From: Zhengella mangrovi
GTDB lineage: Bacteria > Pseudomonadota > Alphaproteobacteria > Rhizobiales > Rhizobiaceae
DNA length: 64,000 bases
Assembly (NCBI RefSeq): GCF_002727065.1
Contig: NZ_PDVP01000013.1
Coordinates: 1 to 64,000 of the forward strand
Direction of reading: 5' to 3'
Positions within the stretch are counted from its first letter, which is position 1. Each line of letters opens with the position of its first letter. A program made the position numbers and the translations under genes. Of the stretch, positions 14,091 to 35,707 are shown one piece after another. The notes beneath the pieces were generated by a model. It saw only the letters and a program-made list of their open reading frames with translations, was not told the origin of the DNA and searched no databases.

Positions 14091-14279
14091 AGGCCAGCGC
14101 CGCCGGACCGGCCGGATCGACCCTGCTGGAGAATGTTGTTCCACGCGTGCACGGTTGCGATGATCGCCGCGGCCTCCTTGGGCCTTGCCTGAATTTACTG
14201 GCGTCGCGAAGGGCAATGTGGTGCCATGATCGCTGGCGGGCGGCAGGGGTCCGTTGCCGGGGCAGAGGGGAGGCGGCAC

Positions 14280-15512: not shown

Positions 15513-16031
15513 TCACATCCCCAACGCGGACGCCGGCCAACGGGTGGCGAGGACATGCCAGCCGGCCAGGATCAGCATGGCCCAGCCGGCCGCCAGGATG
15601 TCGTCGAGGATGACCGCGAAGCCGGACGTGCCCTGCCGGTCGGGAATATGCACCGGCCATGGCTTCACGATATCGAAAACGCGAAACAGGATCAGGGCTG
15701 CCAGCCAGCCGGTCCAGCTTGCCGGTGCCACCAGCAGCGTCAGGGCCATTCCGATCGTTTCATCGATGACGATGGCGTTGTGATCGTGCTCGCCGAGATC
15801 GTCGCCCGTCTTTCCCGAGGCCCACGACGCGATCGCGATCAGGGCGGCGAGGACCGCCAGCTGGATCGGCAACGGCAGGAAGGACAGCGCCCAGAACAGC
15901 GGGATTGCCCCGAGTGCCCCCGCGGTGCCGGGCGCGTAGGGAGAGAGCCCGAGCCCGAAGGCGAGCGCGATCGCCTGGTGCGGCCTGCGCACCATTTCGC
16001 GGAAGGTCGGCTCTCGGCTGTGCGCGGACAT
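15513..16031 (-). CDS. pgpA: PgpA-family lipid phosphatase
   Basis: 172-residue integral membrane phosphatase with PgpA hallmarks: GLGLSPYAPGTAGALGAIP (27-45), IDETIG and FRVFDIVKPWP. The family removes the phosphate from phosphatidylglycerophosphate. PgpA-like enzymes have also been assigned to phosphatidylinositol-phosphate in inositol-lipid clusters of Bacteroidetes, as I recall. It is the last gene of a minus-strand operon after a CDP-alcohol phosphatidyltransferase (16-base gap), so it probably dephosphorylates that enzyme's product. Whether that is PG or an inositol lipid is open. Confidence 0.88.
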   Translation of the reverse strand: MSAHSREPTFREMVRRPHQAIALAFGLGLSPYAPGTAGALGAIPLFWALSFLPLPIQLAVLAALIAIASWASGKTGDDLGEHDHNAIVIDETIGMALTLLVAPASWTGWLAALILFRVFDIVKPWPVHIPDRQGTSGFAVILDDILAAGWAMLILAGWHVLATRWPASALGM

Positions 16032-16047
16032 GGCCTGCCGCCTCCGC

Positions 16048-16686
16048 TCAGGTGGTGGGTCCGCCGGTCAGCTCGCTCGAAGGCCTGAGGAAGAAATAGG
16101 CCCGCAGGATGCGTTGCAACGCGGTGAAATTGGTGAGCACCGCCAGGATGACGAGGCCGGCGTAGAGGGGGCTGCCGCCGAGCATGGCCGGCAAGCTCAG
16201 GACGCTTTCGGCGAAAAGGGCCACCGGCAGGAACCACAGGCGCACCGGCCGCTGCAGGTAGTCCGGCCAGTCCTTGTTCCCGGTCGGCCTTTCCAGCGCC
16301 ACCCGCGCCTTGGCATAGCTGATCATCATCGATCCGAAGAGGATCACGAACAGGAGGGTCCAGTAGCCCGTCACGATGCCGACGGCGAAATAGACGATGG
16401 CCTCCTGGTATCGGTCGATCGTGGCGTCGAAATAGCCGCCGAAGCGCGTCGAACGGCCCTGGTAGCGGGCAACCGCGCCATCCAGCGCGTCGGTCGTGAA
16501 GGAGAGCGACAGCCCGACGGCAAGCCAGTAGGGGTCGCGCGTGATGACGTAGGCCGTGCTGTGCGCAATGATCAGGAACAGGCCGATCAGCGTGATCTGG
16601 TTCGGCGAGACGCCGGATTCGCAAAGCTGGACGAACGCCCATTTGCCGAACCGCACGACGTGGGAAACGAGGGCCTCGATGATCAT
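16048..16686 (-). CDS. CDP-alcohol phosphatidyltransferase
   Basis: 212-residue membrane enzyme with the complete family motif D-x2-D-G-x2-A-R-x8-G-x3-D-x3-D, running from DALDGAVAR to the final Asp of YFDATID (about residues 66-91), and five or six hydrophobic segments. Such enzymes move a phosphatidyl group from CDP-diacylglycerol to a polyol (phosphate). Paired with PgpA, the acceptor is probably a phosphorylated alcohol such as glycerol-3-phosphate or inositol-phosphate; an inositol-phosphate synthase gene lies about 15 kb away at 31463. The ATG at 16686 is 11 bases after the stop of the activase partner gene, which supports one operon. No strong ribosome-binding site is seen. Confidence 0.87.
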   Translation of the reverse strand: MIIEALVSHVVRFGKWAFVQLCESGVSPNQITLIGLFLIIAHSTAYVITRDPYWLAVGLSLSFTTDALDGAVARYQGRSTRFGGYFDATIDRYQEAIVYFAVGIVTGYWTLLFVILFGSMMISYAKARVALERPTGNKDWPDYLQRPVRLWFLPVALFAESVLSLPAMLGGSPLYAGLVILAVLTNFTALQRILRAYFFLRPSSELTGGPTT

Positions 16687-16697
16687 AAGGACTTGGC

Positions 16698-18395
16698 TCA
16701 GCTGATCGGTTGCGTCTGGAGCAGACGGCGCGTTGCCGCCAGCGGGCGTTTCATCCAGCCGCCGGAAACGGCATGAAGCTGGGCCACGGCCGTTGCTGCC
16801 GTCCGCTTGCGCCAGCGATAGCCGCTGACGCTGTTCAGCCCGGCCCGCTTCAGCCGGAGGCGCGCCTCGTCCGCGTCGAGACCGGTTTCCTCGCAGGCGC
16901 GCGCGAATTCCGACCGGGCCATCTCGCGGGCCTTGAAAAGCTGCATCTGGACCCGCGAATGCAGCAGCACAGCCGCGTCGCCGGTCGTTTCCACGGCGCA
17001 GAAGACGGCATCGGGATAGAGCTCGCTGACCTGCGACTGGATGCCGTCCGAGATGCCCGAAGACGGCATGCAGCCGAAAGGCTTGATCGAGATCACCATG
17101 TGCGCCTTGCGGTACAGCGCCGTCTGGATCAGCTTGCCGACCTCCATGTGGCCTTCGCCGCCACGGATGTGGTTGTCGTAGAACCGGTTGGAAAGCTCCG
17201 CCATCTCGTCCATGTCCGGCAGCCGGGCATGGCGCAGGCCGATCGCCCAGGCATAGGTATGGAAGGCCGCCTTCAGCGCCTTCTCGGCGATCCAGAGCTG
17301 CACGAGCCGCTTGCGCTCGTCCTTGTCGCCAAGTCCCATCCGGGCGTGGTCGGACTTGCGCAGCATCATGCGCCGCCGCGTGTCCCAGCGGTTCTGCCAG
17401 ACCTGGTACATCACCCAGGCCATCACCATCTGTCCGTCCACCTCGGCGCCTTCCTGCTCCAGGAAGCGCTGCAGGTGGTAGCAGCCGTCGCCTTCCGTCG
17501 TCATCGCCCAGAATTCGCCGATGATCGAGACCTTGGGCTTGGCGCGCATCCAGTCGAGTTCGACCGTGTCGAGCACCGTGCGGCAGCGCCGCATGGCGCG
17601 CAGGGAATTCCGCCCGCTCGACAGCGCCTCGCGCAGGATCTTGCGGCACGCCTCCACCGCCTGGTCGGTTGCACCCGGCGTCACTTCGTAGGGCCGCATG
17701 CGATAGGCCATCACGTTGAGGATGTCGCCGATCATCACCGCCTTGATCAGCGCGAAGATGAACACCCGGTCCAGGACGAGGCCGACGTCGTCGCCGCAGG
17801 CCTGGCGCAGGCCGCCGTTGTTGTCGAGCAGCAGCACGCGGAAACCGGTGTAGCCTGCATCGCGCAGCGCCTTGCGGTATTCCGTGGCATAGGTGCCGAA
17901 GCGGCAGGGGCCGCACGCGCCGACCGTCGTGAAGACGTAATTGTCGATGATCTCCTGGCGCGAAAGCCCTTTGCCCTCCAGGTCGCGCAGGTACTTGATC
18001 AGGTTGCCGACCGTGAAATAGGTCGGGTTGCACTGGCCGCGGTTGCCGAATTCCTTGCCGAAGCGAAGCGCGTCGTTGTCCGGCGTATCCAGCACGCGGA
18101 CCTTGTAGCCCAGTCCCTCCAGCGCCCCGCCGATCAGGATGTCCTGCGATTGGGTCAGCCCGCCGAACAGCAGGGTCGTATGCTCGCGCTGGGCCCGGGT
18201 GAAACCCTGCGGGTTGGCGTCGAACCAGTGCCGCGGTGCCGCTTTCGCCTCGCCGGCGCAGCTCTGGCAGGACGGTCCGGCCGAAAGGTCGGGCAGAACG
18301 GGCCGGGCGGAGGCATCGCTGCGCGCACCGGGGACCCGGCCGTGAACGCCATCGTCCGGTTCAACGAATTGCCGTAACTCGGGACGCTGGTTCAT
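16698..18395 (-). CDS. 2-hydroxyacyl-CoA dehydratase/reductase-like Fe-S protein (COG3581 type), PlsA/GeR-like half
   Basis: 565-residue protein that appears homologous to the C-terminal part of large acyl-CoA dehydratase activase proteins. Conserved-looking stretches include GGLTQSQDILIGGALEGLGY, GNRGQCNPTYFTVGNLI, VGACGPCRFGTY, TEGDGCYHLQRFLE and KPFGCMPSSG; the cysteines in them are candidates for iron-sulfur ligands. In many genomes this region is fused to the activase encoded just upstream, whereas here the two are separate genes 144 bases apart. The same domain set makes up the clostridial plasmalogen synthase system and the bacterial glycerol ester reductase, as I recall. The start ATG at 18395 is preceded by a purine-rich GAGAAG. 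Confidence 0.75.
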   Translation of the reverse strand: MNQRPELRQFVEPDDGVHGRVPGARSDASARPVLPDLSAGPSCQSCAGEAKAAPRHWFDANPQGFTRAQREHTTLLFGGLTQSQDILIGGALEGLGYKVRVLDTPDNDALRFGKEFGNRGQCNPTYFTVGNLIKYLRDLEGKGLSRQEIIDNYVFTTVGACGPCRFGTYATEYRKALRDAGYTGFRVLLLDNNGGLRQACGDDVGLVLDRVFIFALIKAVMIGDILNVMAYRMRPYEVTPGATDQAVEACRKILREALSSGRNSLRAMRRCRTVLDTVELDWMRAKPKVSIIGEFWAMTTEGDGCYHLQRFLEQEGAEVDGQMVMAWVMYQVWQNRWDTRRRMMLRKSDHARMGLGDKDERKRLVQLWIAEKALKAAFHTYAWAIGLRHARLPDMDEMAELSNRFYDNHIRGGEGHMEVGKLIQTALYRKAHMVISIKPFGCMPSSGISDGIQSQVSELYPDAVFCAVETTGDAAVLLHSRVQMQLFKAREMARSEFARACEETGLDADEARLRLKRAGLNSVSGYRWRKRTAATAVAQLHAVSGGWMKRPLAATRRLLQTQPIS

Positions 18396-18539
18396 CGGCG
18401 TGTTTCTTCTCGCAAGACCTGGCAGGGCACATGGACTTCCCAGTCCCGGCAGCCGCAAGTGAACTGCCAACCGGTTTATTTTACCTCGATTTTCATCGCG
18501 GCGACAAGCCGCCGCGATGGCGCACACCATGTGCTGGCG

Positions 18540-21500
18540 TCATTCGGCCGCGGCGGCTGGACCGACGCTGGCCATCGCCGCTCTCGCCGTTTCGGCGAGC
18601 TTCCGCTCGTGGCGGGCAAGCGTGTAGGCAAAGGTCTTGACGCGGATGTTGATCGATCCGCTCGGCCGGTTCGCGTCGATGTCGTGCAGCGCCATGTAGG
18701 GCGTGCCCGCCGCGTTGATGATGTTGTCGATGAGGCCGTAGGTCGGCGCATCGTGTCCGCACTTGAAACTCGATAGGTCGAGGACGGCGAGGTTGGGATG
18801 CCGCGCTGCGAACTTGGCGGCCCACACCTTTTCCGCGCTGTTGGTCGAGTAGCCTTCCGGCCAGACGTCATTGATGTCGTGGACCGACTGGATGCGCCCG
18901 TCGGCCAGGTCGCCGGCAAAGTAGCGCTCCAGGTAGTCCTGGTCCTTCGGGATCGAGCGGATCGACAGGATGGGGTAGCCGAGCGCCTGGAACTCCTCCA
19001 GGATGCCGTGGTTCAGGCCACGGTCCGAATGGTACGGCCTCGCCAGGAGCAGCAGGCCCATCCGGCCCTCCTTCTCCAGGCTGTCGAGGATTTTCCGCCC
19101 CTTGGCCTGCAGGCCGCTCTCGAACCGCGCCAGCGCCTCGTAGGCCCGGTCGATGGCATGGTCGCTCTCGTCCTGGCTGACGCCCAGCCGGCCGCCCCAA
19201 TAGTCGAACATCTGTGCCTTGAGGTAGTTCGGCTCGATCAGCGTCAGCGACGGGTCGACATACTCGACCCCGGCGCGCTGAAAGAAGTTGACGTCCTTCG
19301 TGAACGCCGCCCGGTTGACCGCAGCGGCTCCGGAAATGATGGGGCACGAGGCCGAATCCTTGGTGTATTCGAGAAACGAAGGGATGTGGGTCAGGCCGGG
19401 CAGGAAGATGTAGTCCACCTTGCCGCGCCGGTCGGATTCACCGGCCAGCAACTGGTGGATATGCGCCTGGACGACCTTGGCCGGGTAGCACGGGTCGACG
19501 GATCCGTACTTGCCGCCCTTGAGCCAGAGTTCCTCGTTGGTCTCGGTCGAGAACACCACGTTTTCCGGCCGCAGCCCCAGCGTCTGGAAATAGGCGCGCC
19601 AGAACGGGCCCGTCGAATGCATGCTCAGGACCCGCGGAATGCCGATCCGGACCGTGTCGCGGCGCCGGGCGGCATCGGCGTCCGAGCGCATGAAGCCGCG
19701 CCTGATCGCCTTGCGCCGGACCGCTCCGAGGATCGTCCGCGACACCTTGATGTCGTCGATCAGGGTGCCGTCCGCCGGCAGTTCGGACGCCGTGGCCGGT
19801 TCCCGGAACGCCGCTTCGGCTTCCAGTTCCACCATGTTGGGAAACTGCCGCTGCAGGCCCTTGCGCCGCTGGGCAATCGTTTTCAGTTCCCCTTTCGAGG
19901 CCACGGTGCCGTTCTCGCAGGAAAAACCGGCGATGAATCGCGTCGTGTGCCCGTCCGGCGTCTCGGCCATCGTGAACGTGCGCTGGCAGTGGTTGGTGCA
20001 GAAATCGCAGACCGTCGAGGCGTCGTTACGGGTCGTGTAGGTCAGCTTCCCGGTCATCTCGAGCCCGATGAACCGGCTCTTGCCGCGCCGCAGCACCTCG
20101 TTGCGCGCTTCCAGTGCCGCACCGAGCGCGCCGGCCTCGGCACAGAACGGGTGCACATGGACCTCGGCATCCGGCACCCGTTCGCGGATGTAGTCCACCT
20201 GCGCCTTGACCGCGGCCAGGTTGTACTGCGTCCCGCCCTGCAGCACGAAACTCCGCCCGAGTTCGGCCATGCGTGGGATCTGCACGACATATTGCCAGAT
20301 GTTCTTGGGCAGGACCTGCGCCAGCCCGGCCATGATTTCCTCGCGCGTGTAACCCTCGCGCTGGAAATTGACCCGGTCCGCATCGAGGAACACGGCGCAG
20401 CCATAGTTGAATTTCGGCGCGAGCCGGGCCTCGAAGGCCAGGTCCGCGTAATCGGTCATCTTCACGCCGAACTGGCGCGCCATCGCCTGCAGCAGCATGC
20501 CGTTTCCGGCCGAGCACTGGTTCGAGAGGCGGAAATTGCGGATCTCGCCATTGACCAGGAACAGGATCTTGATGTCCTGGCCGCCGACATCGCAGATGAC
20601 GTCGACATCGGGAAAGTGCTGCTTGGCCGCCAGCATGTGGGCGACGGTCTCCACCAGGTTGACGTCGGCCGACAGCGTCGCCTCCAGCACGTCGCCGGCA
20701 TAACCCGTGACGCCGAGGCCGTCGATGCGCAGCCGCCCGCCGCGCGACCGGATGTCCTCCTCGAGATCGGCCATCAGCGCCTTGGCATCGGCGATCGGGT
20801 TGCCCTTCGACAGAACGTAACGCTTGGCGATCACCTCGCCGTCGCCGGAAATCAGGACGGCCTTGGACGAGGTCGAGCCGCCGTCGATGCCGAGGTAGCC
20901 GCCCGTCTCGCCGTTCAGGGCGGGCGGCTGGAAGGGTGCCGGTGCATAGGCCTGCCGGAAGGCCGCGAGTTCCTCCGCATTGGCCGAAAGCGGCGGCCCG
21001 GAGACGCTTTCCAGCCCGGCCCGCTGCCCGAGTTCGGCATACTGGCGCAGCCGCTCCAGCCCCGCGAAGCGGCCAAGGGTCTCCGGCTGCAGAAACCCGA
21101 ACAGGGCGGTGCCGTAGGCCGGGTAAAGCACCGGGTTGTCCGGCACGATGATCAGGTCTTCCAGCGGGATGTCGCGCGGAAAGGTATAGGCCCGCTCGAT
21201 CCAGCTCTCCCGGATGCGTTCGCGCCAGGCCGCCTGGAGAAATGGCAGGTAGGTGATCGGGCCGCCAAGCAGGATGACCTTGTGTCGCAGCGTATTGCCG
21301 CGCGCCAGCACGGACAGGTTCTGCAGCACGACGGCGTCGGCGAGCGAGCACGCGATCTCGTCGCGCGCGACGCCGGATTTCATCAGGTTGACGATGTCGG
21401 TCTCGGCGAAGACGCCGCATTTCGCGGCCACGTGGTGCAGCTTGCTGCTGTCCCAGGCCAGGCCCGGCAGCTCGTCCTCGGCGATGTTGAGCTTCTCGAA

Positions 21501-21971
21501 GCACTTGTCGATCGTCGCGCCGGTGCCCGATGCGCACTTGTCGTTCATCGACGCGATGGTCTGGCGCTCGCCGGTTTCCCGGTTTTCCTTGTAGATGACG
21601 ATCTTGGCGTCCTGCCCGCCGAGTTCGACCACGCTTCCGGCGTCGGGATGAAGCGCTTCGACCGCCAGCGTCAGGGCGTTGACCTCCTGCACGAATTGCG
21701 CGCCCAGCAGGGGCGCCAGCGGTCCCGCGCCCGACCCGGTCATGAAGATCCGGATGGTCTCCGGTTCGCGCGGAGAAAGATCGCTGAGCAGGCGCTCCAG
21801 CTGGCGCAGCACGGTCCGCGCCTGGTAGGTCTCGTGCCGCTCGTAGCTTGACCAGAGGATCGGATGATCGCCCGTGCTGTCCACGGCGGCCATTTTCACC
21901 GTCGTGGAACCGACGTCCACGCCTATGACGATTTCAGCGCTTTCCAAGTCCGAACTCCGGGTTCCGGGCAT
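18540..21971 (-). CDS. Large acyl-CoA dehydratase activase (BcrAD/BadFG x2 + DUF2229), PlsA/GeR-like half
   Basis: 1143-residue protein with two ASKHA-type activase domains. The first (about 12-305) has GVDVGSTTVKM and the two cluster cysteines at about 146 (NDKCASGTG) and 185 (KCGVFAETD) that bind the shared [4Fe-4S] in HgdC. The second (about 370-640) has GIDGGSTSSKA, NQCSAGNGM and YGCAVFLDADRV. A CDFCTNHC cysteine motif and a DUF2229/COG3580 region (IGIPRVLSMHSTGPFWRAYF) follow. These ATPases feed low-potential electrons to radical dehydratases or reductases. It heads an operon with its partner and two phospholipid genes. The ATG at 21971 follows AGAAGGA; a GTG at 22010 is the alternative. 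Confidence 0.85.
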   Translation of the reverse strand: MPGTRSSDLESAEIVIGVDVGSTTVKMAAVDSTGDHPILWSSYERHETYQARTVLRQLERLLSDLSPREPETIRIFMTGSGAGPLAPLLGAQFVQEVNALTLAVEALHPDAGSVVELGGQDAKIVIYKENRETGERQTIASMNDKCASGTGATIDKCFEKLNIAEDELPGLAWDSSKLHHVAAKCGVFAETDIVNLMKSGVARDEIACSLADAVVLQNLSVLARGNTLRHKVILLGGPITYLPFLQAAWRERIRESWIERAYTFPRDIPLEDLIIVPDNPVLYPAYGTALFGFLQPETLGRFAGLERLRQYAELGQRAGLESVSGPPLSANAEELAAFRQAYAPAPFQPPALNGETGGYLGIDGGSTSSKAVLISGDGEVIAKRYVLSKGNPIADAKALMADLEEDIRSRGGRLRIDGLGVTGYAGDVLEATLSADVNLVETVAHMLAAKQHFPDVDVICDVGGQDIKILFLVNGEIRNFRLSNQCSAGNGMLLQAMARQFGVKMTDYADLAFEARLAPKFNYGCAVFLDADRVNFQREGYTREEIMAGLAQVLPKNIWQYVVQIPRMAELGRSFVLQGGTQYNLAAVKAQVDYIRERVPDAEVHVHPFCAEAGALGAALEARNEVLRRGKSRFIGLEMTGKLTYTTRNDASTVCDFCTNHCQRTFTMAETPDGHTTRFIAGFSCENGTVASKGELKTIAQRRKGLQRQFPNMVELEAEAAFREPATASELPADGTLIDDIKVSRTILGAVRRKAIRRGFMRSDADAARRRDTVRIGIPRVLSMHSTGPFWRAYFQTLGLRPENVVFSTETNEELWLKGGKYGSVDPCYPAKVVQAHIHQLLAGESDRRGKVDYIFLPGLTHIPSFLEYTKDSASCPIISGAAAVNRAAFTKDVNFFQRAGVEYVDPSLTLIEPNYLKAQMFDYWGGRLGVSQDESDHAIDRAYEALARFESGLQAKGRKILDSLEKEGRMGLLLLARPYHSDRGLNHGILEEFQALGYPILSIRSIPKDQDYLERYFAGDLADGRIQSVHDINDVWPEGYSTNSAEKVWAAKFAARHPNLAVLDLSSFKCGHDAPTYGLIDNIINAAGTPYMALHDIDANRPSGSINIRVKTFAYTLARHERKLAETARAAMASVGPAAAAE

Positions 21972-22601: not shown

Positions 22602-23300
22602 TCACAGCTCCGAGATGAGCGTGGTGCGGGCGCCGGCATCGGCGAAATGGTCGATTGCGCTGTCCAGCGCGGCCAGTGCGCCGTCACCGGTGCCGAACCG
22701 GCAATCCAGCGGGATGGGCGCGCTGCGCATGTCGACGAATTCCCAGGGGTGAAAGAAGAGGACGGCCGGGTCGCTCAGGCTGGCAAGCACCCGCCGGCTC
22801 AGGAAGGCCGGCAGCCGCGTGGCCGAGGGCGTTGTCGATGCCGGGACGGAGCGCACGCCGGAGAAGACCTCCGCCCCGGCGAAAAACGAGCCGCGCTTGT
22901 ATTTCGCCCGCGAGGAATCGTGGACGTAACCCGCATCGCGCAGGATGGGATAGTATTCCCGGGGAAAATCGAGGTTGGGTGCCCGGAAGCTGGTAACGGC
23001 GGAAAACGCCCGCAGCGTCCTCGATGACGCGTCGATCTCCCGGAAAGCCTCGTCCGCCGACATGGCCGAAAACCGCTTGTGCGTATCGCCATGGCATCCC
23101 AGTTCGTGCCCCTCGTCGACCAGCCTTCGGATCAGCGCGGGAAACCGGCGCGCCACGTCCCCGGTGGCGAAAAACGTCGCCCGTACACCGCGGGCCGAGA
23201 GCAGGTCGAGCAGCCTGGGAAGCCCTTCCGCCATGCCCTGGTAGCTGGTCAGGTATGGCGGGCAGTCATGCTCCAGGTCGATCGTGTAGGAAACGCGCAT
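22602..23300 (-). CDS. Polysaccharide deacetylase family protein
   Basis: 232-residue carbohydrate esterase 4-type protein. The NodB-homology motifs are visible: SYTIDLEHD near the N-terminus (catalytic/metal Asp), ELGCHGDTH (metal His pair, H-x3-H), and SFRAPN. No signal peptide is seen, so a cytoplasmic or lipid-linked glycan substrate is possible. It is divergent from the GT4 gene at 23441 and belongs to the envelope-glycan region. The ATG at 23300 is chosen because the conserved domain begins there (MRVSYTIDLEHD). Confidence 0.88.
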   Translation of the reverse strand: MRVSYTIDLEHDCPPYLTSYQGMAEGLPRLLDLLSARGVRATFFATGDVARRFPALIRRLVDEGHELGCHGDTHKRFSAMSADEAFREIDASSRTLRAFSAVTSFRAPNLDFPREYYPILRDAGYVHDSSRAKYKRGSFFAGAEVFSGVRSVPASTTPSATRLPAFLSRRVLASLSDPAVLFFHPWEFVDMRSAPIPLDCRFGTGDGALAALDSAIDHFADAGARTTLISEL

Positions 23301-23440
23301 CACGGATCCACTTGCGTTGCCAGCTAACAAATCAGCGCCATGCGTTGAATATCGGGAAAAACTCTATAGAACGGCTCGCGATCAGGCACAATTGCTGCGC
23401 CTTGCCCCGAACTGCCGCTGGTTGGACATGGAAACGGAAT

Positions 23441-24547
23441 ATGCGTATCGCGTTGGCCAGTGACTGGTTTTGGCCGCGCAGAGGGGGGCTCGAGATGCAG
23501 GTGGCCAATCTGGCCCTGCGTCTGAAGGCAGCCGGTCACAGCATCGAAATCATCTGCGCCACGCCCGGAATGCCCGATTTCGAGGGTATCCCTGTGCGCC
23601 GTCTCGATGTCGGCCCGCTGCTTCCCGGCGTCGAGGCCGCCTGGCTTCCGCGCCTCCTGTCGGTCACCCTGGAGGCCGTCAGGGCCGGGGGATACGATAT
23701 CGTCCATGCACACAGCGCCTATTCGCCGATCGCGCTCGCCTGTTGCCGCGCCGCGCGGATGACCGGCACGGCGAGCATCCTGACCGAGCATTCGCTGTTT
23801 CGCGGCGCCGAACGCTGGCCGTTGCGGTTCTTCGATCTCCTTTTCCGCTGGCGCCATTTCCCCGACGAGATTACCGCCGTGTCCTCTGTCGCCGCCCGTG
23901 ACATCGGCGAACTGACGAACCGGCCGGTGTCTATCCTGCCGAACGGGGTCGACATCTCGAAATGGTCCGGGCGGGCCGGCGTCCCGGCCGGCAAGATCGT
24001 CACGGCGATGCGCCTTGTCCCGCGCAAGCGTCCCTTTGCCTTTCTCGAGGCGGCCGCGAAGGCGAAGCAACTGCTCGGGCCTGGCCATGCGGCGGAATTC
24101 ACGGTGATCGGAGACGGCCCGTTGCGTGCCAGGCTGGAACGGAGGGCCGAGGAACTGGGCCTGCGGGACTCGCTGCGCTTCGCCGGCTGGCTGGACCATG
24201 AGGCGATGCGCGGCGAATACGCGAATGCCGCCGCGTTTGTCAGCATGGCGACGAAGGAAGCCCTGTCGATCGCGACGCTCGAGGCCCTTGCCAGCGGCTT
24301 GCCGGTCGTCGCCATGAAGGCTGGCGGCGTGCGCGACATCCTTGACGGCAAGGGCGCCGGCGTCCTCGCCGGAACGGAAGAGGAGGCGGCCATCGCCATG
24401 TCCCGTTTCCTTGGAGACAGGGCCTTCCGCCAGAGCCATGCCGCGAACACCTGTGCCACCGTGGCGCCCTTCGACTGGGGACCGGTCCTCGAGCGCCACC
24501 TGGCGCTCTATCGAAAGACGCAGGCCCGTGTGCGCGAGACGATCTGA
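23441..24547 (+). CDS. Glycosyltransferase family 4 protein
   Basis: 368-residue retaining GT-B enzyme. The N-terminal donor-loop pattern SDWFWPRRGGLEMQVANLA resembles PIG-A/PimB-like GT4 proteins. NGVDISKW and the E-x7-E motif (EALSIATLEALASGLPVV) mark the nucleotide-sugar site. It probably adds a sugar to a lipid-linked acceptor at the inner membrane face. The ATG at 23441 begins the typical beta-strand MRIALASDWF. The resemblance to inositol-lipid mannosyltransferases is interesting given the inositol-phosphate synthase at 31463, but GT4 donor and acceptor cannot be assigned from sequence. Confidence 0.9.
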   Translation: MRIALASDWFWPRRGGLEMQVANLALRLKAAGHSIEIICATPGMPDFEGIPVRRLDVGPLLPGVEAAWLPRLLSVTLEAVRAGGYDIVHAHSAYSPIALACCRAARMTGTASILTEHSLFRGAERWPLRFFDLLFRWRHFPDEITAVSSVAARDIGELTNRPVSILPNGVDISKWSGRAGVPAGKIVTAMRLVPRKRPFAFLEAAAKAKQLLGPGHAAEFTVIGDGPLRARLERRAEELGLRDSLRFAGWLDHEAMRGEYANAAAFVSMATKEALSIATLEALASGLPVVAMKAGGVRDILDGKGAGVLAGTEEEAAIAMSRFLGDRAFRQSHAANTCATVAPFDWGPVLERHLALYRKTQARVRETI

Positions 24548-24550
24548 AGC

Positions 24551-24577
24551 AGGCCGGACAATTTGTCTCTCCGGCCT
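24551..24577 (+). terminator. Weak hairpin after the GT4 gene
   Basis: AGGCCGGA (24551-24558) pairs perfectly with TCCGGCCT (24570-24577) around an 11-base loop, four bases after the GT4 stop. No T-run follows, so termination is uncertain. Confidence 0.35.
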
Positions 24578-24650: not shown

Positions 24651-26495
24651 GTGAAGAGCCCGCCGCTGATATTGGAAATCCGACGGTTTTTGACGATCCC
24701 GGTCGTCCTCGTGCTGGCGGCGCTGTCGGCCTATCCGCTGGTCTTCCGCCTTCTCCACATGGACGAAACCGGTCTCCCGTTGCGTCACTACGATCATGTC
24801 GGGATCGCCAGCGACCTGGCGGTCGGCCTGATGGTCAGCGTGCTGTTGATCCTGTTCGCCCGGAAAACCCGGTTTGCCTGGGTCGTGGCCAGCGGCGTGT
24901 GGGTCGTGCTGAACGTCGTCAACTACGAGTTCCTGCGCGAGTTCGGCTCGACGAGCTTTGCCGTCGAGGCGGCGCAGGTCCTCGAGCCGGTCTTCATGGC
25001 GGGATCGGGAACCAACATCCATCATGCCTGGCTTGCCGCAGCCCTGTTCGCGGGTCTCGTCGGGTCGCTCGCCGTGATCCGTCGCAAGCCGGATGCCGGG
25101 CAGTGGCAGCGCATTGCGGGCGTGGCCTTCCTCTGCCTGCTCGCGGTCGAACTCTACCCGCGGAACATCAACGTGGTCGAATGGCGCCAGCGCGATTTCG
25201 TGGTCACCAATCTCCGCGACCTGTTCGAGCGCATGACGCGGCCTGCAGTGGCGCTGGACGCTGCCCTGCTTCATTCTCCGCAGGTCGAAGCCGTGTTCCA
25301 GGCCGACCTGGACGGCATGCCGCTGTTCGGCCCGGCGCAGAAGCGGGCCAAGAACGTGCTCCTCGTTTTCATGGAGGGGGCGAGCGGGGCCTTCGTCCCG
25401 TCGGTCGCGGCGGTTCACGGGATCGACAGCCGCAACAAGATGACCCGGCTCGACGAGATTGCCCGCGCCAATATCACGTACACGCAGTTCATCACCGCCC
25501 AGCGCAAGTCCGATCGCGGCATCTACAGCGCGCTCTGCGGCGACCTGCCGACGCTGACCTATACGACGCCCAAGATGTCGCAGATCGCGAACGGGAAGGA
25601 CTCCGCCTGCCTGCCGGGGCTCCTGGCCAGCGCGGGCTATTCGACGCTTTTCATGAAGTCGGCGAACATCAGCTACATGCAGATGGACACCTTCGCCCGC
25701 AAGGCCGGCTACGAGCGCGCTTACGGAAACAAGGGGTTCGACCCCTCGCTGCCGAGGCAGCAATGGGGCGTCTCCGATGAAATCCTCTATTCGGCTGCGT
25801 TCGACGAGATCAACGCGCTGGAGAAATCCGGCAAGCCCTGGTTCGTGACCCTGTTCACGTCATCGACCCATCACCCATTCAACATTCCAGACAGTTTCAC
25901 CGGGATGCCCGATGAGATACCGCGAATCCGCAGCTGGGCCTATGCCGACAAGGCCGTGGGCGATTTCGTGGACCGCTTGCGCAGCAGCGGCAAGCTCGAC
26001 GATACGCTGGTGCTGATCACCGCGGACGAGGCGTCGCTGGGTCTTGCCAACAGGCGCGACAAGGAGGAATCGCTGCATGGCCTGACCGAGAACTGGGGCG
26101 TGATGGTCGCGGTCTCACCGGACCGGACGCCGCTGCGGATCGACGACACCTTCCAGCAGGCCGACATTTCCCTGTCCATCCTCGACTATCTCGGCCTGGA
26201 CCGGATGGCCGGCGGCTTCCTCGGGCGCAGCATGTTCCGCCGCTATGCGCACCCTCGGAACCTCTACTTCGCCAACAATTACAAGCACGCCTTCTACGAG
26301 CTGGATACCGCGCGCCGCCTGACCACCTGCGACGACCATCTCAAGGACTGTGTCGCGACGACGCGCCCGGACCTGCCGCTGTTTTCCAGCGCGTTCGAAC
26401 ATGCCAACGGGCCGGCCGAGGCCAGCGAGCGGATGATTGCCGTCCAGGCGAGAAGCCTCGGGATCCGCAGCCGGCCCGCGCGCGAAACCAATTGA
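24651..26495 (+). CDS. LTA-synthase/phosphoethanolamine-transferase-like membrane protein
   Basis: 614-residue protein with N-terminal membrane spans (about 13-160) and a sulfatase-fold extracytoplasmic domain. Candidate metal and catalytic positions: Glu in VFMEGASG, a Ser/Thr nucleophile in QRKSDRG, STHHPFN and ADEASLG. In LtaS the last motif is GDH; here the His is replaced by Glu, which is odd and may mean altered metal binding. The family moves phosphoglycerol or phosphoethanolamine from phospholipids onto glycans or lipids. The GTG start is preceded by AGGACGG. Its place among glycosyltransferases suggests decoration of the locus's glycan. Confidence 0.8.
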   Translation: MKSPPLILEIRRFLTIPVVLVLAALSAYPLVFRLLHMDETGLPLRHYDHVGIASDLAVGLMVSVLLILFARKTRFAWVVASGVWVVLNVVNYEFLREFGSTSFAVEAAQVLEPVFMAGSGTNIHHAWLAAALFAGLVGSLAVIRRKPDAGQWQRIAGVAFLCLLAVELYPRNINVVEWRQRDFVVTNLRDLFERMTRPAVALDAALLHSPQVEAVFQADLDGMPLFGPAQKRAKNVLLVFMEGASGAFVPSVAAVHGIDSRNKMTRLDEIARANITYTQFITAQRKSDRGIYSALCGDLPTLTYTTPKMSQIANGKDSACLPGLLASAGYSTLFMKSANISYMQMDTFARKAGYERAYGNKGFDPSLPRQQWGVSDEILYSAAFDEINALEKSGKPWFVTLFTSSTHHPFNIPDSFTGMPDEIPRIRSWAYADKAVGDFVDRLRSSGKLDDTLVLITADEASLGLANRRDKEESLHGLTENWGVMVAVSPDRTPLRIDDTFQQADISLSILDYLGLDRMAGGFLGRSMFRRYAHPRNLYFANNYKHAFYELDTARRLTTCDDHLKDCVATTRPDLPLFSSAFEHANGPAEASERMIAVQARSLGIRSRPARETN

Positions 26496-26529: not shown

Positions 26530-27837
26530 CTATTGCGCGGCCTGCAGGGATGCCTTCGCCGTCCTGCCGTCCAGTTCGCCGAAGAAAGCGACGATCTGGT
26601 CGGCCGTTTGCGTCCACGGAACGGGTGCGAACTCGCGGTGGATCACGGCCTCGCGCTTTTCGATGAATCCCGGCTCGAAGAGCGCCCGTTCGATCAGGCG
26701 ATAGGCCTCGTCTTCGTCGGTGGGGGGGAAGTAGTCGCAGAACCGGCCGCCGGCTTCCGGAATGGAGGTCGCATCGGAAGCGATGCAATACTTGCCATGC
26801 GCCAGGCTTTCCGACACCGGCAGCCCCCATCCCTCGCACAGGCTGGGAAAGACGGTGAACAGGCAGGCGTCGTAGGCCGCCTGGATCTGGGCGTCGGAGA
26901 GGTTTTCAACGACCCTGATCTTTCCGTCCAGCCTGCCGGTTGCCTCCAGTTCGCGCAGGAGGTCGGCGATCTGCCAGCCGAGCTTGCCGGCAAATACCAG
27001 GGCAGGAACGGCGTCGCGGCCGTGCGCCTCGATCAGGCGCTTCCAGATCCGGACCAGCGCGAGATGGTTCTTCCGGATTTCGATCGTCGAGACGAAAAGG
27101 ACATAGGGCGCCTCGCAGACCGGCGCGATGCCGGCGTCGCGGCGCGGGGCAACGAGACCGTCGCCGTAGCGCACCGGGCGGATCGCCGGGATCGCCATGC
27201 CGTGTTCCGCGAGCCAGTCCTCCAGGATCACCCGGGTCGCCCGCGACGGTGTCAGGATCGCGTCGCACAGCGGCATCATCGCCGTCAGCCAGCGGGCGAA
27301 GTTCGGCGCATGCACCGGGCTGACCAGCCCCGGATGCGACACCGGCAGGATATCGTGGACGAAAAGCACGAAGCGGAAACCGTGCTGCTGCTTCAGGGCA
27401 CCGAGGGCCGCGGCATAGTGCGGATTTTCCCAGGAGGCGCCGAAGTTGACGACGAGGTCGCCCGGACGGATGTCGGTGGCAAATTGTCGCGCATGCCCGC
27501 CCGGCGCGGCCGCGGATGCCCAGCGGCCGACCGTTCGTCTTGCGGCCCGCAGGGCCTGCGCAACGCGGATGCGCGCCCGCTTGGCCGGCGTGTCGCCCCT
27601 CAGCGCCCGCATGCGTGCGACGAGCGCCCGCACCTCGCGGTGGCTCACCGTGCGCACGTCGCCGGCCGAATGGCCCAGCCGGAACAGCCGGATCCGGTCG
27701 CCATGGCGGTCGAGCAGGGCAGGGATCAGTTCCATCTGGACGCGGCCGATCCCGGTCGGCGTCAGGGACCAGTCGAACATGCGCATGAAATCGTCGATTT
27801 CAATCCAAATGCGGCAATCGGGAACGGGCGGTTTCAT
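26530..27837 (-). CDS. Glycosyltransferase family 4 (GT1-type) protein
   Basis: 435-residue GT-B glycosyltransferase. The central and C-terminal blocks FVLFVHDILPVSHPGLV, ILTPSRATRVILEDWL, YVLFVSTIEIRKNH, FPSLCEGWGLPVSESLAHG and CIASDATSIPEAGG resemble mannosyltransferases of ABC-dependent O-polysaccharide clusters. I chose the ATG at 27837; an ATG at 27903 is possible but has no ribosome-binding site. The gene is divergent from the Wzm-type permease and convergent with the LTA-synthase-like gene (34-base gap). Confidence 0.9.
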   Translation of the reverse strand: MKPPVPDCRIWIEIDDFMRMFDWSLTPTGIGRVQMELIPALLDRHGDRIRLFRLGHSAGDVRTVSHREVRALVARMRALRGDTPAKRARIRVAQALRAARRTVGRWASAAAPGGHARQFATDIRPGDLVVNFGASWENPHYAAALGALKQQHGFRFVLFVHDILPVSHPGLVSPVHAPNFARWLTAMMPLCDAILTPSRATRVILEDWLAEHGMAIPAIRPVRYGDGLVAPRRDAGIAPVCEAPYVLFVSTIEIRKNHLALVRIWKRLIEAHGRDAVPALVFAGKLGWQIADLLRELEATGRLDGKIRVVENLSDAQIQAAYDACLFTVFPSLCEGWGLPVSESLAHGKYCIASDATSIPEAGGRFCDYFPPTDEDEAYRLIERALFEPGFIEKREAVIHREFAPVPWTQTADQIVAFFGELDGRTAKASLQAAQ

Positions 27838-28003
27838 CGGCGTCGGCGGGACCTCTTGCAGAGGTTCTCTCCTATTGGACTTCGGGTGACTAGCCAATAC
27901 CATGATTTGGACTTATAGAGACGGGTATGGGCGGGAAGCGAGGCTCCGTCGGAAAGTAGTTTTGGGCCATGCCCAAGTGGCAGGCCGGGGCTTGAGGCAT
28001 TTC

Positions 28004-31462: not shown

Positions 31463-32551
31463 ATGATCAGGACTGCGGTTTTTGGAATCGGCAATTGTGC
31501 CAGCTCGCTCGTTCAGGGGATCAGCAGCGTGCGCCGGCGCGGGACCGACACGCCGGGCATCATGTTCGAGAAGCTTGGCGGATACGGTCCGGAAGACATC
31601 GAGATCGTGGCGGCATTCGACATCGACCGGCGAAAGGTCGGACAGCCGCTCAACGAGGCCATCTTCGCGGCGCCGAACAACACGCTTGTCTTCGAGGACC
31701 AGCCGCTTTTCGCCGATGTCACCGTTTCAGCCGGACAGATCCTCGACGGCATTGCCGACACGATGCTCGGTGCCGATCCGGACCTGTGTTTCGAACCCAT
31801 CGAAAGCGGCGAGGCAAGCCGGGAGGACATTATCCGGCAGCTGAAGGAAAGCGGTGCGGAGGTCGCGATCAACTTTCTCCCGGTGGGTTCCCAGCAGGCG
31901 ACGGAATTCTATGCCGGCTGCGCACTCGAGGCCGGGCTCGCCTTCGTCAACGCCATCCCGGTGCTGATCGCCAGCAACGACGAATGGAGCGGGCGTTTCA
32001 GGGCGGCCGGCCTGCCGGTGCTCGGCGATGACATCAAGGCACAGGTTGGCGCGACCATCGTGCACCGCGCGCTGGTGTCGCTGTTCAAGAAGCGCGGCGC
32101 GGACCTGGAACGCTCCTACCAGCTCAATGTCGGCGGCAACAGCGACTTCCTGAACATGATGAGCGCGGGACGGCTGACCACGAAGCGCAAGTCGAAGACG
32201 GAATCGGTGCAGAGCGTGACGCGCGAACGGCTGGCCGACAACGATCTGCGGGTCGGCCCGTCCGACTATGTCGCCTGGCTGAACGATCGCAAGGTCGCCT
32301 TCATCCGGCTGGAAGGGCTCCTGTTCGGCGGCGCGCCGATCAACGTCGAGGTCCGCCTCGACGTGGAGGATTCCCCCAATGCCGCGGCGCTGGCCATTAC
32401 CGCGATCCGCGCGGCCAGGATCGCCCTCGACCGGGGCGATTGCGGCGCCCTGCCGGATCTCTGCGCCTACCTGTTCAAGCATCCGCCGGTCCAGATGGAC
32501 GACGGCGTGGCGATGGACAGCCTGTTGGCCTACACGGAAAACGATGGCTGA
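31463..32551 (+). CDS. ino1: myo-Inositol-1(3)-phosphate synthase
   Basis: 362-residue NAD-dependent enzyme converting glucose-6-phosphate to inositol-phosphate. This is the short form known from actinobacteria and archaea. Visible: the NAD-binding VFGIGNCASSL (6-16), VAAFDID, INFLPVGSQQATEFYA, AFVNAIPV, GDDIKAQVGATIVHR, LNVGGNSDFLNM, KSKTESV and GPSDYVAWLNDRKVAF. A strong AGAGGGGA precedes the ATG. It begins a cluster with the LptB-like gene (8-base overlap) and LptF/G-like genes, and follows the Wzt genes by 72 bases. It implies an inositol-containing product, most simply an inositol phospholipid or glycolipid. Confidence 0.92.
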   Translation: MIRTAVFGIGNCASSLVQGISSVRRRGTDTPGIMFEKLGGYGPEDIEIVAAFDIDRRKVGQPLNEAIFAAPNNTLVFEDQPLFADVTVSAGQILDGIADTMLGADPDLCFEPIESGEASREDIIRQLKESGAEVAINFLPVGSQQATEFYAGCALEAGLAFVNAIPVLIASNDEWSGRFRAAGLPVLGDDIKAQVGATIVHRALVSLFKKRGADLERSYQLNVGGNSDFLNMMSAGRLTTKRKSKTESVQSVTRERLADNDLRVGPSDYVAWLNDRKVAFIRLEGLLFGGAPINVEVRLDVEDSPNAAALAITAIRAARIALDRGDCGALPDLCAYLFKHPPVQMDDGVAMDSLLAYTENDG

Positions 32552-33317
32552 ACCCGGGCCGCAAGAGGTACTCCTGGGCCGCGGCCTGCGCAGGGTCTAC
32601 GGCCAGCGCGACATCCTGTTCGATGTCGACGTGGCCGTGGAACGCGGAAAGGTGACCGGCCTGCTCGGGCCTTCCGGTTCCGGCAAGTCGACGATCTTCA
32701 GGATCCTCTGTGGCGTCGAGCGCCCGGACAGCGGCGCTGTCACCATGGGCAAGCGCGACATCACGCGCCTGGGCATCGATGCGCGTGCCCGGCTCGGCAT
32801 CGGCTACATCCCGCAGTTTCCAGAGCTCTTCATGCAACTGACGGTCCGCGACAACCTGCAGATCGCGCTGGAAGGCCGCCGTCTCGACCGCGACCGGGCG
32901 GCAGCCGTCATGGGCCGGATCAGCAAGGCCTTTTCCCTGCAGCCGATGCTGGGCAACCCGGTCGCCACCCTGTCCGGCGGCCAGCGGAAGCTGGCGGAGA
33001 TCGCCTTCGCCATGTGCTCCTTTCCGCGCTTCCTGCTGCTCGACGAACCGTTCGCGCGTCTTGATCCGATCAACGTCGCCCGGGTTTCGGCGATCCTGCG
33101 GGGCCTGGCGCGATCCGGCATCGGCATCCTGCTGTCGGACCATTCGGCGCGCGATGCGCTTGCCCTTTGCAGCACCGCCAGTATTATCCAGCACGGCGTC
33201 GTCATTGCCTCGGGAACGCCAGCGGCAGTCTCGCGCGATCCGCAGGTCCAGGCCATTTTCCTCGGGCCGGGTTTTGGCGGTCAGGCAGTCGCTGGAGCCG
33301 GTTCCGGGCACTCTTGA
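32544..33317 (+). CDS. LptB-like ABC ATPase
   Basis: 257-residue ATPase with Walker [10 protein letters not shown] (about 44-52), signature LSGGQRKLAEIAFAM and Walker B FLLLDEPFARLDP, resembling LptB, the ATPase that powers LPS extraction. It overlaps the inositol-phosphate synthase gene by eight bases and is followed by two LptF/LptG-type permeases, so it is probably their motor. The housekeeping lptB usually lies beside lptA/lptC and rpoN, which are not here, so this looks like a second, specialised set. Confidence 0.85.
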   Translation: MAEPGPQEVLLGRGLRRVYGQRDILFDVDVAVERGKVTGLLGPSGSGKSTIFRILCGVERPDSGAVTMGKRDITRLGIDARARLGIGYIPQFPELFMQLTVRDNLQIALEGRRLDRDRAAAVMGRISKAFSLQPMLGNPVATLSGGQRKLAEIAFAMCSFPRFLLLDEPFARLDPINVARVSAILRGLARSGIGILLSDHSARDALALCSTASIIQHGVVIASGTPAAVSRDPQVQAIFLGPGFGGQAVAGAGSGHS

Positions 33318-33356: not shown

Positions 33357-34508
33357 GTGACTTACCTTGTGAACGCCATTCGCCGCACGGGTCTCATCTT
33401 CCTCGGCCTGTTCGCCGGACTGCTGCTGATCTTCGCCATCGAGCGCGCCGAGTACATCATCCAGCGATCGATCGCCTACGATGTTTCGCCGCTCGTTTTC
33501 GTCAAGCTCTTCGTCTTCTACGTCCCGCGGGTGATGAGCTACATCGTTCCGGTGTCGGTGGTGACGGCGGTTTATTTCGTGGTCCTTTCCTGCCGCGAGA
33601 ACCGCGAGTTTCTCGCCCTCGAAGCGGCGGGAAGCAGCCTGAAGCCGATCACGCGCCTGACGCTGCTGCTGGCCGGCGGCGCGTTTCTCGTCAACCTGCT
33701 GATCACCGGCTACATCATGCCGGGGGCCGCCCATGCCTATCGCGCCGAGACCTACAAGGCGCGCGCCGCGTTCGCCGCGGGCGGTCCTAGATCCGGCGAG
33801 TTCATGACGGACGGCGGCAACGTGTTCCAGGCCTCTAGACCGGACGCACGGGGCAACCGGACGCTGCGTGTTTTCCAGTTTGGCGAGGACGACGCCCTCG
33901 ACAAGATCGTCGTGTCCAGTTGCGCCAGGCTGGTGGTTGGCCAGGGCGGCATGCTGTCGAACATGTGTGCCGCCAATGCCTATCTCTTCAACGGCGCCCC
34001 CTTCGCCCCGGCGCCGGCAGAAGGAAGTTCCACGGCCGGCAGCGACGGAACCGTGACGACGCTTCAGGCAAGCGAATCGAGCGTCTTTTTCTCGCTCAAC
34101 AGCATCGTCCCGGCGCTTCTGACCGAACGGCTCAACGAACGCCCGCTGACCCGTCTCTTCGCGCTCGATCGCAAGGGGGAATTCGCCTCCGCCGCCGATG
34201 CGCGCAAGGGGATCATCGATCTCTCGTCGGCGTTCAGCAGCGCGATTGCCGTGGTTCTCGGCGTCGTGGCCGTCGCGCTGACTTCGTCGCGCAGCCGGTT
34301 CTTCGTCCTGCCCGGCGCCGTCGCCGCCACCATGCTGATCAACATGACCGCCGTCTCCGGCATCCTGGTGCCGCAGGACGTCATCCCGGGAAAAACAGGC
34401 GTCCTTGTCGTTCTCGCCTCGATGCTGCTCGGCCTCGGGTTGGCCGTTCATGCCATCTTCCGGCTCTTGCACAATCGCTTGCTCGTACCGGGCCTGAGGC
34501 GCACATGA
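33357..34508 (+). CDS. LptF/LptG-family permease (first of pair)
   Basis: 383-residue YjgP/YjgQ-family protein. Three N-terminal membrane spans, with the conserved-looking NREFLALEAAGSSLKPITR after the second, are followed by a periplasmic beta-rich domain (about 130-265) and three C-terminal spans. The family forms the membrane part of the Lpt extractor that hands lipid to a periplasmic bridge. The GTG start has AAGGGGGAG upstream. The stop overlaps the partner gene by four bases. Confidence 0.85.
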   Translation: MTYLVNAIRRTGLIFLGLFAGLLLIFAIERAEYIIQRSIAYDVSPLVFVKLFVFYVPRVMSYIVPVSVVTAVYFVVLSCRENREFLALEAAGSSLKPITRLTLLLAGGAFLVNLLITGYIMPGAAHAYRAETYKARAAFAAGGPRSGEFMTDGGNVFQASRPDARGNRTLRVFQFGEDDALDKIVVSSCARLVVGQGGMLSNMCAANAYLFNGAPFAPAPAEGSSTAGSDGTVTTLQASESSVFFSLNSIVPALLTERLNERPLTRLFALDRKGEFASAADARKGIIDLSSAFSSAIAVVLGVVAVALTSSRSRFFVLPGAVAATMLINMTAVSGILVPQDVIPGKTGVLVVLASMLLGLGLAVHAIFRLLHNRLLVPGLRRT

Positions 34509-35707
34509 GGCGGACGCCGGTACCGAGAACCGTCTTCCCGGGACAGCCGAAATGGCTGCAGCATTTCCCGAGGACCTATACCGGGTACATGGTGCGCCAC
34601 CATGCCTGGTTCATCCTGGTCTGCTTCGTCGGCATCGTGGCGACGGTGACCGCGATCGACGTGGCGCCGGAGATCAGCCGCGTCTGGCAGGAACAGTCGC
34701 AGCAGGGCACCCGGGCGGGGGTGTCCCGCACCTTGCTGTTCATCGTGCTCCGGCTGCTCGACAACGGCACCCAGTCCTTCCCGATCAGTTTCGTCCTCGG
34801 GATGCTCTGGGGCGAGGTCGCCCACGCCTGGAATGGCCGCCTTGCCATGATCCGCACCTCCGGCATGCCCTTCCTGCGCCGCACCTATCCGGTCCTGCTG
34901 ATCGCGGCGGCCAGCGTTCCGGTCCTCTTCACGCTCGACAATTTCGTCCGTCCCGCGGCTTTCATGACGCAGAGCCGGCAGGGGCTGGGCGAATACGGCT
35001 GGAGCTTCGAGAAGAAGCGCACCGAGCGCACGCTCTGGATCGCGCGCGGAGACACCGTCGTGCACGGCACGCTGAACTATGACCCGCGGCCCCATTTCCA
35101 GGATGTCATGCTGTTCTATTTCACCGACCGCGGCTCGATGACGGGTATCGCCCATGCCGCGCGCCTGGAGCCCTCCGCCGATCCGGCCGGCGAATGGATC
35201 CTGAAACAGGCCGATGTCCGCTCGGTCGCCGCCTCGGCCGGGCAGGCGGGGGAAGGGTCGGCCGCCTCGGCCGTCGAGCATTTCGTGAGCCACCCGTCCG
35301 GCATCAGGATCAGCCGGCTCTGGCTCGACTACCTGCGGATCCATCCGAAATACATCCCCTTCGGCGATCTCGTCCGCCTGTCCGGCGACACGGCATTGCC
35401 GGACGATCATCCGGCCTACCGCGAATGGCTGATGATCCGCCTGTTCCAGTCGCTGGCGCCGGCGCTGATCGTGCTGTCGCTGAGCGCCATCTTCGCGCTC
35501 CTGCTGGACCGGTACGGCCTGCTGCGGGCCACGGTCGCCTCGTTGTTCGCCGCCTATGCCCTCTACTCGGTCACCCGCATATCGGCGGTCATCATCGAGA
35601 ATTCCCCGGCCTCGCCCTTCCTCGTCACCATGGCGTTTCCGCTGCTCTGTACCGGCCTGTTCGTGGCGCTGCTGGCTGCGGTTTCGCGCGCGGACGAGAT
35701 CCCCTGA
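34505..35707 (+). CDS. LptF/LptG-family permease (second of pair)
   Basis: 400-residue partner of the preceding permease with the same layout: membrane spans at about 36-54, 90-105 and 125-140, a periplasmic domain at about 150-290 and three C-terminal spans (about 320-390). The block RTSGMPFLRRTYPVLL corresponds to the coupling-helix region that contacts LptB. It is convergent with the glycosyltransferase gene ending at 35751. Confidence 0.83.
   Translation: MRRTPVPRTVFPGQPKWLQHFPRTYTGYMVRHHAWFILVCFVGIVATVTAIDVAPEISRVWQEQSQQGTRAGVSRTLLFIVLRLLDNGTQSFPISFVLGMLWGEVAHAWNGRLAMIRTSGMPFLRRTYPVLLIAAASVPVLFTLDNFVRPAAFMTQSRQGLGEYGWSFEKKRTERTLWIARGDTVVHGTLNYDPRPHFQDVMLFYFTDRGSMTGIAHAARLEPSADPAGEWILKQADVRSVAASAGQAGEGSAASAVEHFVSHPSGIRISRLWLDYLRIHPKYIPFGDLVRLSGDTALPDDHPAYREWLMIRLFQSLAPALIVLSLSAIFALLLDRYGLLRATVASLFAAYALYSVTRISAVIIENSPASPFLVTMAFPLLCTGLFVALLAAVSRADEIP

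Follow-up and report, generated by a model that had tools for sequence, protein, structure and literature searches.

Two kinds of bacterial enzyme that form ether-linked lipids are among the closest described systems to the one reported here. Plasmalogen synthases comprise an activation part and two reduction/dehydration parts, which are carried on one gene in the fused PlsA of Listeria, Enterococcus, and Lactococcus, and on two in Clostridium perfringens, where PlsA and PlsR form a two-gene operon (PMC10191378, PMC8788747). Ger, from Thermotoga maritima and Desulfatibacillum alkenivorans, is a tested alkyl-ether enzyme with two activase domains, whereas in most genomes screened plasmalogens accompany a single such domain; sequence alone is said not yet to allow a firm assignment (PMC13274423). 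A gene pair with a comparable set of parts, here designated A and R, lies beside phospholipid head-group genes in a 64,000-nucleotide stretch of the alphaproteobacterium Zhengella mangrovi (contig NZ_PDVP01000013.1, positions 1 to 64,000; hereafter the window). The pair is real, well formed, and PlsA/PlsR-like, and ester reduction is its most likely activity.

Plasmalogens have been reported from Bacteroides succinogenes and Listeria monocytogenes (PMC9702350). Homologues in Myxococcota and Acidobacteriota have already been noticed in the literature, with Ger homologues in 61 of 347 metagenome-assembled genomes (MAGs) of Myxococcota (PMC11868695) and PlsAR put forward as a hypothesis for the ether step in Solibacter usitatus (PMC10087280).

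The A/R pair and its apparent operon

Gene A (18540..21971) encodes a PlsA/Ger-like activase-reductase of 1143 residues, and gene R (16698..18395) a PlsR-like second reductase subunit of 565 residues. They are followed by genes for a 212-residue CDP-alcohol phosphatidyltransferase of the archaetidylinositol-/phosphatidylinositol-phosphate synthase type (16048..16686) and for a 172-residue PgpA-family phosphatase (15513..16031), the proposed phosphatidylinositol-phosphate phosphatase. All four frames are intact and lie on the minus strand, with 144 bases between A and R, 11 between R and the transferase gene, and 16 between the transferase and phosphatase genes. Pfam matched two stretches of A to the BcrAD_BadFG activase domain PF01869 (4.9e-70) and a further stretch to DUF2229 (7.2e-47), the transferase to PF01066 (1.3e-14), and the phosphatase to PF04608 (1.2e-37); a Pfam search with R returned no match. 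An initial annotation, made from the DNA letters, had described such a pair on one strand with a transferase and a PgpA-like gene, an 11-base gap, lengths of 1143 and 565 residues, and two activase domains plus DUF2229. Every one of these elements is present. Its picture of the pair was borne out as well, in that A and R show the full PlsA/Ger layout and appear to share an operon with genes for phospholipid head groups. The partner that it called COG3581-like aligns with the C-terminal part of fused PlsA-type proteins, and the window also holds two features that it had passed over, an inositol-1-phosphate synthase gene and a second Lpt set.

A and R together comprise activase domains, a DUF2229 reductase, and a second reductase, and they are collinear with PlsA/PlsR (Ger) proteins over nearly the whole length. 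With blastp, the first 980-1050 residues of the fused proteins of Collinsella, Haliovirga, and Listeria align to A at 29-30% identity (E 2e-124 to 7e-142), and the remainder, the C-terminal part, aligns to R at 22-25% identity (E 9e-22 to 2e-29). These values of about 30% over A and 22-25% over R refer to the fused proteins of these three genera, and the likeness to Ger is one of described domains. The gene context of A/R also differs from that of the plasmalogen synthases. An hhalign comparison between a profile of 18 R sequences and one of five second-reductase sequences gave 100% probability (E 1.1e-42). Ger of D. alkenivorans differs from the split A/R in being a single 159 kDa protein (PMC11150832).

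Eleven cysteines of A (146, 185, 486, 525, 655, 658, 662, 685, 828, 876, and 1071) are invariant in the alignment with the three fused proteins, that of Listeria included, and also across 18 sequences of the clade to which A belongs (clade S, below). R has conserved cysteines at positions 122, 161, 164, and 442, retaining all three sites that are invariant at the fused C-terminus and adding a fourth. These residues of both proteins are putative ligands of iron-sulfur clusters.

Predicted structures relate both proteins to the benzoyl-CoA reductase (BCR), 2-hydroxyacyl-CoA dehydratase (HAD), and double-cubane families. The model of A (predicted local distance difference test score, pLDDT, 83.8) had BCR/HAD activases as its top PDB matches, and its DUF2229 half had no BCR/HAD match among the 50 PDB matches listed. 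For the model of R (pLDDT 75) the best matches were the benzoyl-CoA reductase BzdNO, DCCP, and 2-hydroxyisocaproyl-CoA dehydratase. The predicted folds of R and of the activase domains of A are thus like those of these families, but domain layout and length differ. Solved activases of CoA dehydratases are separate single-domain chains of 243-276 residues, which A, with two activase domains and DUF2229, does not fit.

Relatives of A and their gene neighbours

One scan of the genomes of 84,980 species yielded at least 583 confirmed relatives of A, of which the best 80 were kept, a sample rather than a census. These form two sets, with 42 loci at 42-63% identity to A and 38 at 29-32%. An 84-row tree placed A within a 41-row clade, S, with a Shimodaira-Hasegawa-like approximate likelihood-ratio (SH-aLRT) support of 100, and the other 43 rows made up clade F, which includes Listeria and Fibrobacter succinogenes. 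The latter is the present name of Bacteroides succinogenes. A more careful tree of 49 rows, a chosen subset of 86, gave the same division with 100/100 support. Both trees were built without an outgroup and from rows that did not include sequences of the tested Ger enzymes or of the C. perfringens system; two relatives with frames under 700 residues (L042, L050) were excluded. Taxa of clade S include Myxococcota, Acidobacteriota, Sulfurovum, and one Bacillus, together with a MAG labelled Fibrobacter (L034). Several Bryobacterales pairs fall in this clade, the genes of S. usitatus themselves being outside the set. The initial annotation had looked to phylogeny to assign the pair either to PlsA/GeR or to CoA-dehydratase activases, and neither outcome was obtained: the proteins stand apart from the clade of plasmalogen producers, yet they share the whole PlsA/Ger layout, unlike the solved activases.

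Of the 42 clade S loci, 34 carry R as its own gene and one carries it fused; in the remaining seven, several of which lie at a contig edge, R was not found. All 38 clade F loci have the fused form. The fused clade S case, from SAR202, carries A and R in one frame of 1751 residues (L025:5587-10839). A split A/R-type pair on a plasmid of Fusobacterium animalis (L120:3647-7790) sits inside clade F, so that splitting or fusion probably occurred more than once and the split does not distinguish clade S, which is set apart by sequence. The novelty first attributed to the two-gene split accordingly falls away, the C. perfringens system itself being a two-gene operon. In a MAG of Cellvibrionaceae (L023:10001-15427), omitted from one alignment, the frames of both A and R appear broken by stops or frameshifts, through decay or assembly error.

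Close relatives rarely carry A. DUF2229 occurred in one of the 81 genomes of the relatives search, namely the source genome, which is also the only carrier of A found among 398 genomes drawn from the phylum; within the genus A was present in one of two genomes. At an E value of 1e-50, five of 385 genomes drawn from the class had A, the source included. Identity in the other four was 34-36%; two of them (L003, L005) entered the trees, both in clade F. A MAG labelled Rhodospirillales (L038) has A in clade S, with no R found, and a MAG labelled Alphaproteobacteria (L079) has a relative in clade F. PlsA-like genes in alphaproteobacteria are thus not confined to this genome; the further examples in the class are mostly fused, and orthologues are described in some groups of Proteobacteria (PMC9702350).

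Gene context in Sulfurovum offers a second link to lipids. In four of five Sulfurovum loci (L019, L020, L021, L045) lgt lies directly upstream of A, in three of them overlapping or abutting it and in L020 at a distance of 145 bases; upstream sequence in the fifth locus extends over only 117 bases. The Sulfurovum Lgt passes the NCBIfam lgt equivalog cut-off. A lipid context in two separate lineages, transferase and PgpA-like genes in the window and lgt in Sulfurovum, supports a lipid role for A/R. A transferase motif occurred near A in one of the 80 loci (L048), in a PssA-like gene that is convergent to A and for that reason was not counted as an operon link. Twenty clade S neighbour proteins, chosen from larger lists, were scanned. 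Besides Lgt they comprised MOSC, hydrolase, methyltransferase, sulfatase, histidine kinase, sigma factor, and GGDEF proteins, two lactone oxidases, and ten without a match; one of the twenty (L023:14498-15427) may be the end of R in the broken Cellvibrionaceae locus. In two Myxococcota a gene of the FAD-linked lactone-oxidase type lies downstream of R (L015:15611-16978, L024:15667-16980). The Bryobacterales (Acidobacteriota) loci of clade S have the gene order R-A.

Head-group genes and the surrounding cluster

The initial annotation held that the adjacent enzymes make a lipid head group, without naming it; inositol is the most likely candidate. The best NCBIfam match of the transferase is NF040950, archaetidylinositol-phosphate synthase (1.6e-32), followed by NF045883, phosphatidylinositol-phosphate synthase (1e-19), and its PDB matches are led by AF2299 and then by entries of the phosphatidylinositol-phosphate synthase type. 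Its DxxDGxxAR...GxxxDxxxD motif is also common to other CDP-alcohol transferases; its SYxKAR is kept in four homologues. A gene for a 362-residue myo-inositol-1-phosphate synthase (31463..32551, plus strand; PF01658, and TIGR03450 at 8e-111, below cut-off) lies 15 kb from the head-group genes and is the sole inositol-1-phosphate synthase found in the genome. The phosphatase is likewise the single member of the PgpA family found in the genome, a Caulobacter control having none. In one relative (G849) homologues of the inositol synthase and the transferase are adjacent. From these matches, the head-group genes look like those for a phosphatidylinositol-phosphate synthase and its phosphatase.

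A described counterpart is the BT_1522-1526 cluster of Bacteroides thetaiotaomicron, which, like the window, brings together a CDP-alcohol transferase, a PgpA-like phosphatase, and an inositol-phosphate synthase. The same three kinds of gene, BT_1523, BT_1525, and BT_1526, make phosphatidylinositol there, and the PgpA-like protein most probably dephosphorylates phosphatidylinositol phosphate; the cluster also has a phosphatidylinositol-dihydroceramide synthase, and the accessible portion of the paper mentions no ether-forming or Lpt-like genes (PMC9246714). The PgpA-family protein of the window is linked to a phosphatidylinositol-phosphate-synthase-like gene, as is the BT_1525-type phosphatase.

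Upstream of A the cluster continues with a NodB-like polysaccharide deacetylase gene (22602..23330, minus strand; PF01522). A GT4-type glycosyltransferase gene (23024..24547, plus strand), of uncertain start, overlaps it at the 5′ end; the product has a weak, sub-threshold match to PIGA of glycosylphosphatidylinositol (GPI) synthesis. A minus-strand frame at 23324-24649 was rejected as a gene, homology and composition favouring the plus-strand glycosyltransferase. Further along are genes for a sulfatase-superfamily protein that resembles head-group transferases (24651..26495, plus strand; PF00884, and NCBIfam phosphoglycerol transferase below cut-off), a group 1 glycosyltransferase (26530..27903, minus strand), and an ABC-2 permease with two Wzt-like ATPases (27902-28810, 28794-30101, and 30098-31390, all on the plus strand). 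Behind the inositol synthase gene, also on the plus strand, follow genes for an LptB-like ABC ATPase (32544..33317; TIGR04406 at 1.6e-65, below cut-off) and two LptF/LptG-like permeases (33357..34508 and 34505..35707; PF03739). Two further genes of the LptF/LptG family stand side by side on another contig (C22) and look like the housekeeping pair. The position of the second LptB/LptF/LptG-like set (32544-35707) behind the inositol synthase, and its conservation in two relatives, suggests a dedicated lipid exporter.

Those two relatives, G001 from the same genus and G902 from another, have the cluster without A/R. G001 holds a rearranged counterpart of window positions 15.5-37.5 kb at 49-71.5 kb of one contig, with the phosphatase, transferase, deacetylase, glycosyltransferase, sulfatase-like, ABC/Wzt, synthase, and Lpt genes. 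In G902 most of the cluster genes lie within 17 kb, and the sulfatase-like gene was not found in the 39 kb examined. The group 1 glycosyltransferase and the ABC-2/Wzt genes are kept in both, as are homologues of the deacetylase (46% identity) and of the GT4 glycosyltransferase (39% in G001, 36% in G902). Because the cluster recurs in this form, A/R is best regarded as an optional addition to it. In G001 genes of fatty-acid type, for a beta-ketoacyl synthase, a MaoC-like dehydratase, a short-chain dehydrogenase/reductase, and an acyltransferase flank the inositol cluster (L100:5843-15768).

Proposed reaction and substrate, and alternatives

The reaction, substrate, head group, and link to export that we infer may be set out as a single pathway. 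The two activase domains of A would hydrolyse ATP and feed electrons of low potential to iron-sulfur sites in R and in A's DUF2229 half, where a carboxylic ester of a glycerophospholipid would be reduced and dehydrated to an alkenyl or alkyl ether. The transferase would couple CDP-diacylglycerol with inositol-1-phosphate from the nearby synthase, and the PgpA-like phosphatase would then remove the phosphate to give phosphatidylinositol. An ATP-driven reduction of ester to ether in a glycerophospholipid would be the activity of the pair, with phosphatidylinositol or its precursor pool as the probable substrate, and the ether-linked product might be glycosylated and exported via the neighbouring Lpt-like and Wzm/Wzt-like transporters. 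A PlsA/PlsR-like ester reductase with ether-linked phosphatidylinositol as its likely product, possibly glycosylated and exported, is the explanation we favour, at a little better than an even chance.

Several observations weigh against it. A lies outside the clade with the proteins of plasmalogen producers (Listeria, Fibrobacter), in the deep and separate clade S, and is about 30% identical to the fused proteins of those producers; no functional test of any clade S member was found in the literature. The fold matches of R are modest, with TM-scores of 0.25-0.36 by query length at about 10% identity. NCBIfam scores fall under the equivalog cut-offs for the transferase (112.9 of 180 bits for archaetidylinositol-phosphate synthase, 71 of 170 for phosphatidylinositol-phosphate synthase) and for the phosphatase (118.6 of 226 bits for PgpA), as do the matches of the inositol synthase and the LptB-like protein. 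Several close kin of the source organism are aerobes, whereas the enzyme family is oxygen-sensitive (PMC12838417). The inositol cluster of G001 and G902 does without A, so A/R is unnecessary for the cluster and may act on other lipids, and Lgt was the sole lipid-synthesis protein among the 20 clade S neighbours scanned. The operon linkage anticipated in relatives was partly contradicted: no transferase or PgpA homologue stood beside A in any of the 80 other loci (blastp at 1e-4, frames of at least 90 residues, flanks up to 10 kb and often cut by the contig end). Transferase homologues were found in five of 199 genomes of the family, source included, and A was absent from the whole genomes of four transferase-bearing relatives (G001, G902, G849, G009), the same query recovering the window gene.

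Part of this evidence would suit an enzyme that reduces the esters of bulk phospholipids such as phosphatidylglycerol, its place in the cluster being a chance insertion and the ether not specific to inositol. Relatives with the inositol cluster and no A/R fit this explanation, as do the varied neighbours of other clade S genes and the Sulfurovum partner lgt, whose product uses phosphatidylglycerol as donor. Known producers, moreover, carry ether chains on several head groups (PMC9702350, PMC11150832). Against chance insertion, gaps of 11 and 16 bases separate the R, transferase, and phosphatase genes, an arrangement that fits a single transcript, and we regard the bulk-lipid alternative as unlikely overall, if far from fanciful. 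An action on a non-lipid substrate, such as a CoA thioester, an aromatic acid, or another small molecule that is hard to reduce, seems less probable still. The family does include CoA-thioester dehydratases and benzoyl-CoA reductases, and clade S is distant from the plasmalogen-producer clade, but solved activases are short and single-domain, the layout of double activase, DUF2229, and second reductase is common to A/R and PlsA/Ger-type proteins, and lipid genes adjoin the pair in two lineages. A 4-hydroxybenzoate 3-monooxygenase-like gene (14226-15461) also adjoins the operon; a role in aromatic-acid metabolism was dropped, as this gene lies on the opposite strand and the G001 contig contains no match to it. 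A silent or decayed pair, acquired but now without function, would agree with the absence of A from the only other species of the genus searched and of DUF2229 from the 80 relatives searched. Both frames are open, however, the cluster cysteines are kept, and third-position guanine-cytosine (GC) content is 0.876 in A and 0.878 in R against 0.81-0.89 in neighbouring genes, which makes this alternative very improbable.

In the literature examined, PlsA/Ger enzymes tested so far come from anaerobes and facultative anaerobes only. A deep sister clade like S, with Myxococcota, Acidobacteriota, Sulfurovum, one Bacillus, and the present alphaproteobacterium, would help to trace where the ether lipids of oxic soils and waters originate, which is of current interest for climate proxies based on tetraethers. 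Gene neighbours predict inositol as the head group, and the lgt linkage in Sulfurovum predicts another lipid use; the position of A/R inside a cluster apparently devoted to inositol-lipid synthesis and export suggests, without proving it, an inositol lipid with an ether bond in a bacterial group where it was unexpected. In a literature search that took in few subscription papers, no published link of PlsA/Ger to inositol lipids or to alphaproteobacteria was found, nor any earlier report of the deep clade S, the inositol-lipid linkage, or the Sulfurovum lgt linkage; the two-gene split was already known.

A bolder proposal, which we hold with little confidence, is that the cluster parallels the eukaryotic GPI pathway and, with the second LptBFG exporter, places an ether-linked, glycosylated phosphatidylinositol on the outer surface, clade S being an oxygen-adapted second branch of ester reductases in mainly oxic phyla. 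The parallel would consist of the inositol lipid, the GT4 protein with its faint PIG-A match, the NodB-like protein as de-N-acetylase, the sulfatase-fold head-group transferase, and the ester-to-ether step.

A recent foreign island was dropped as an explanation on composition, as both GC and third-position GC resemble those of neighbouring genes. No RNA genes were found in the window, and scans for promoters and terminators returned no more than in shuffled sequence. A search with 24 kb of the window matched only three plasmid records, each over 1% or less, which neither shows nor excludes a plasmid. In keeping with an alphaproteobacterial source, the window's inositol synthase by itself matches 108 plasmid records, most of them from genera of that class, Sinorhizobium and Roseomonas among them.

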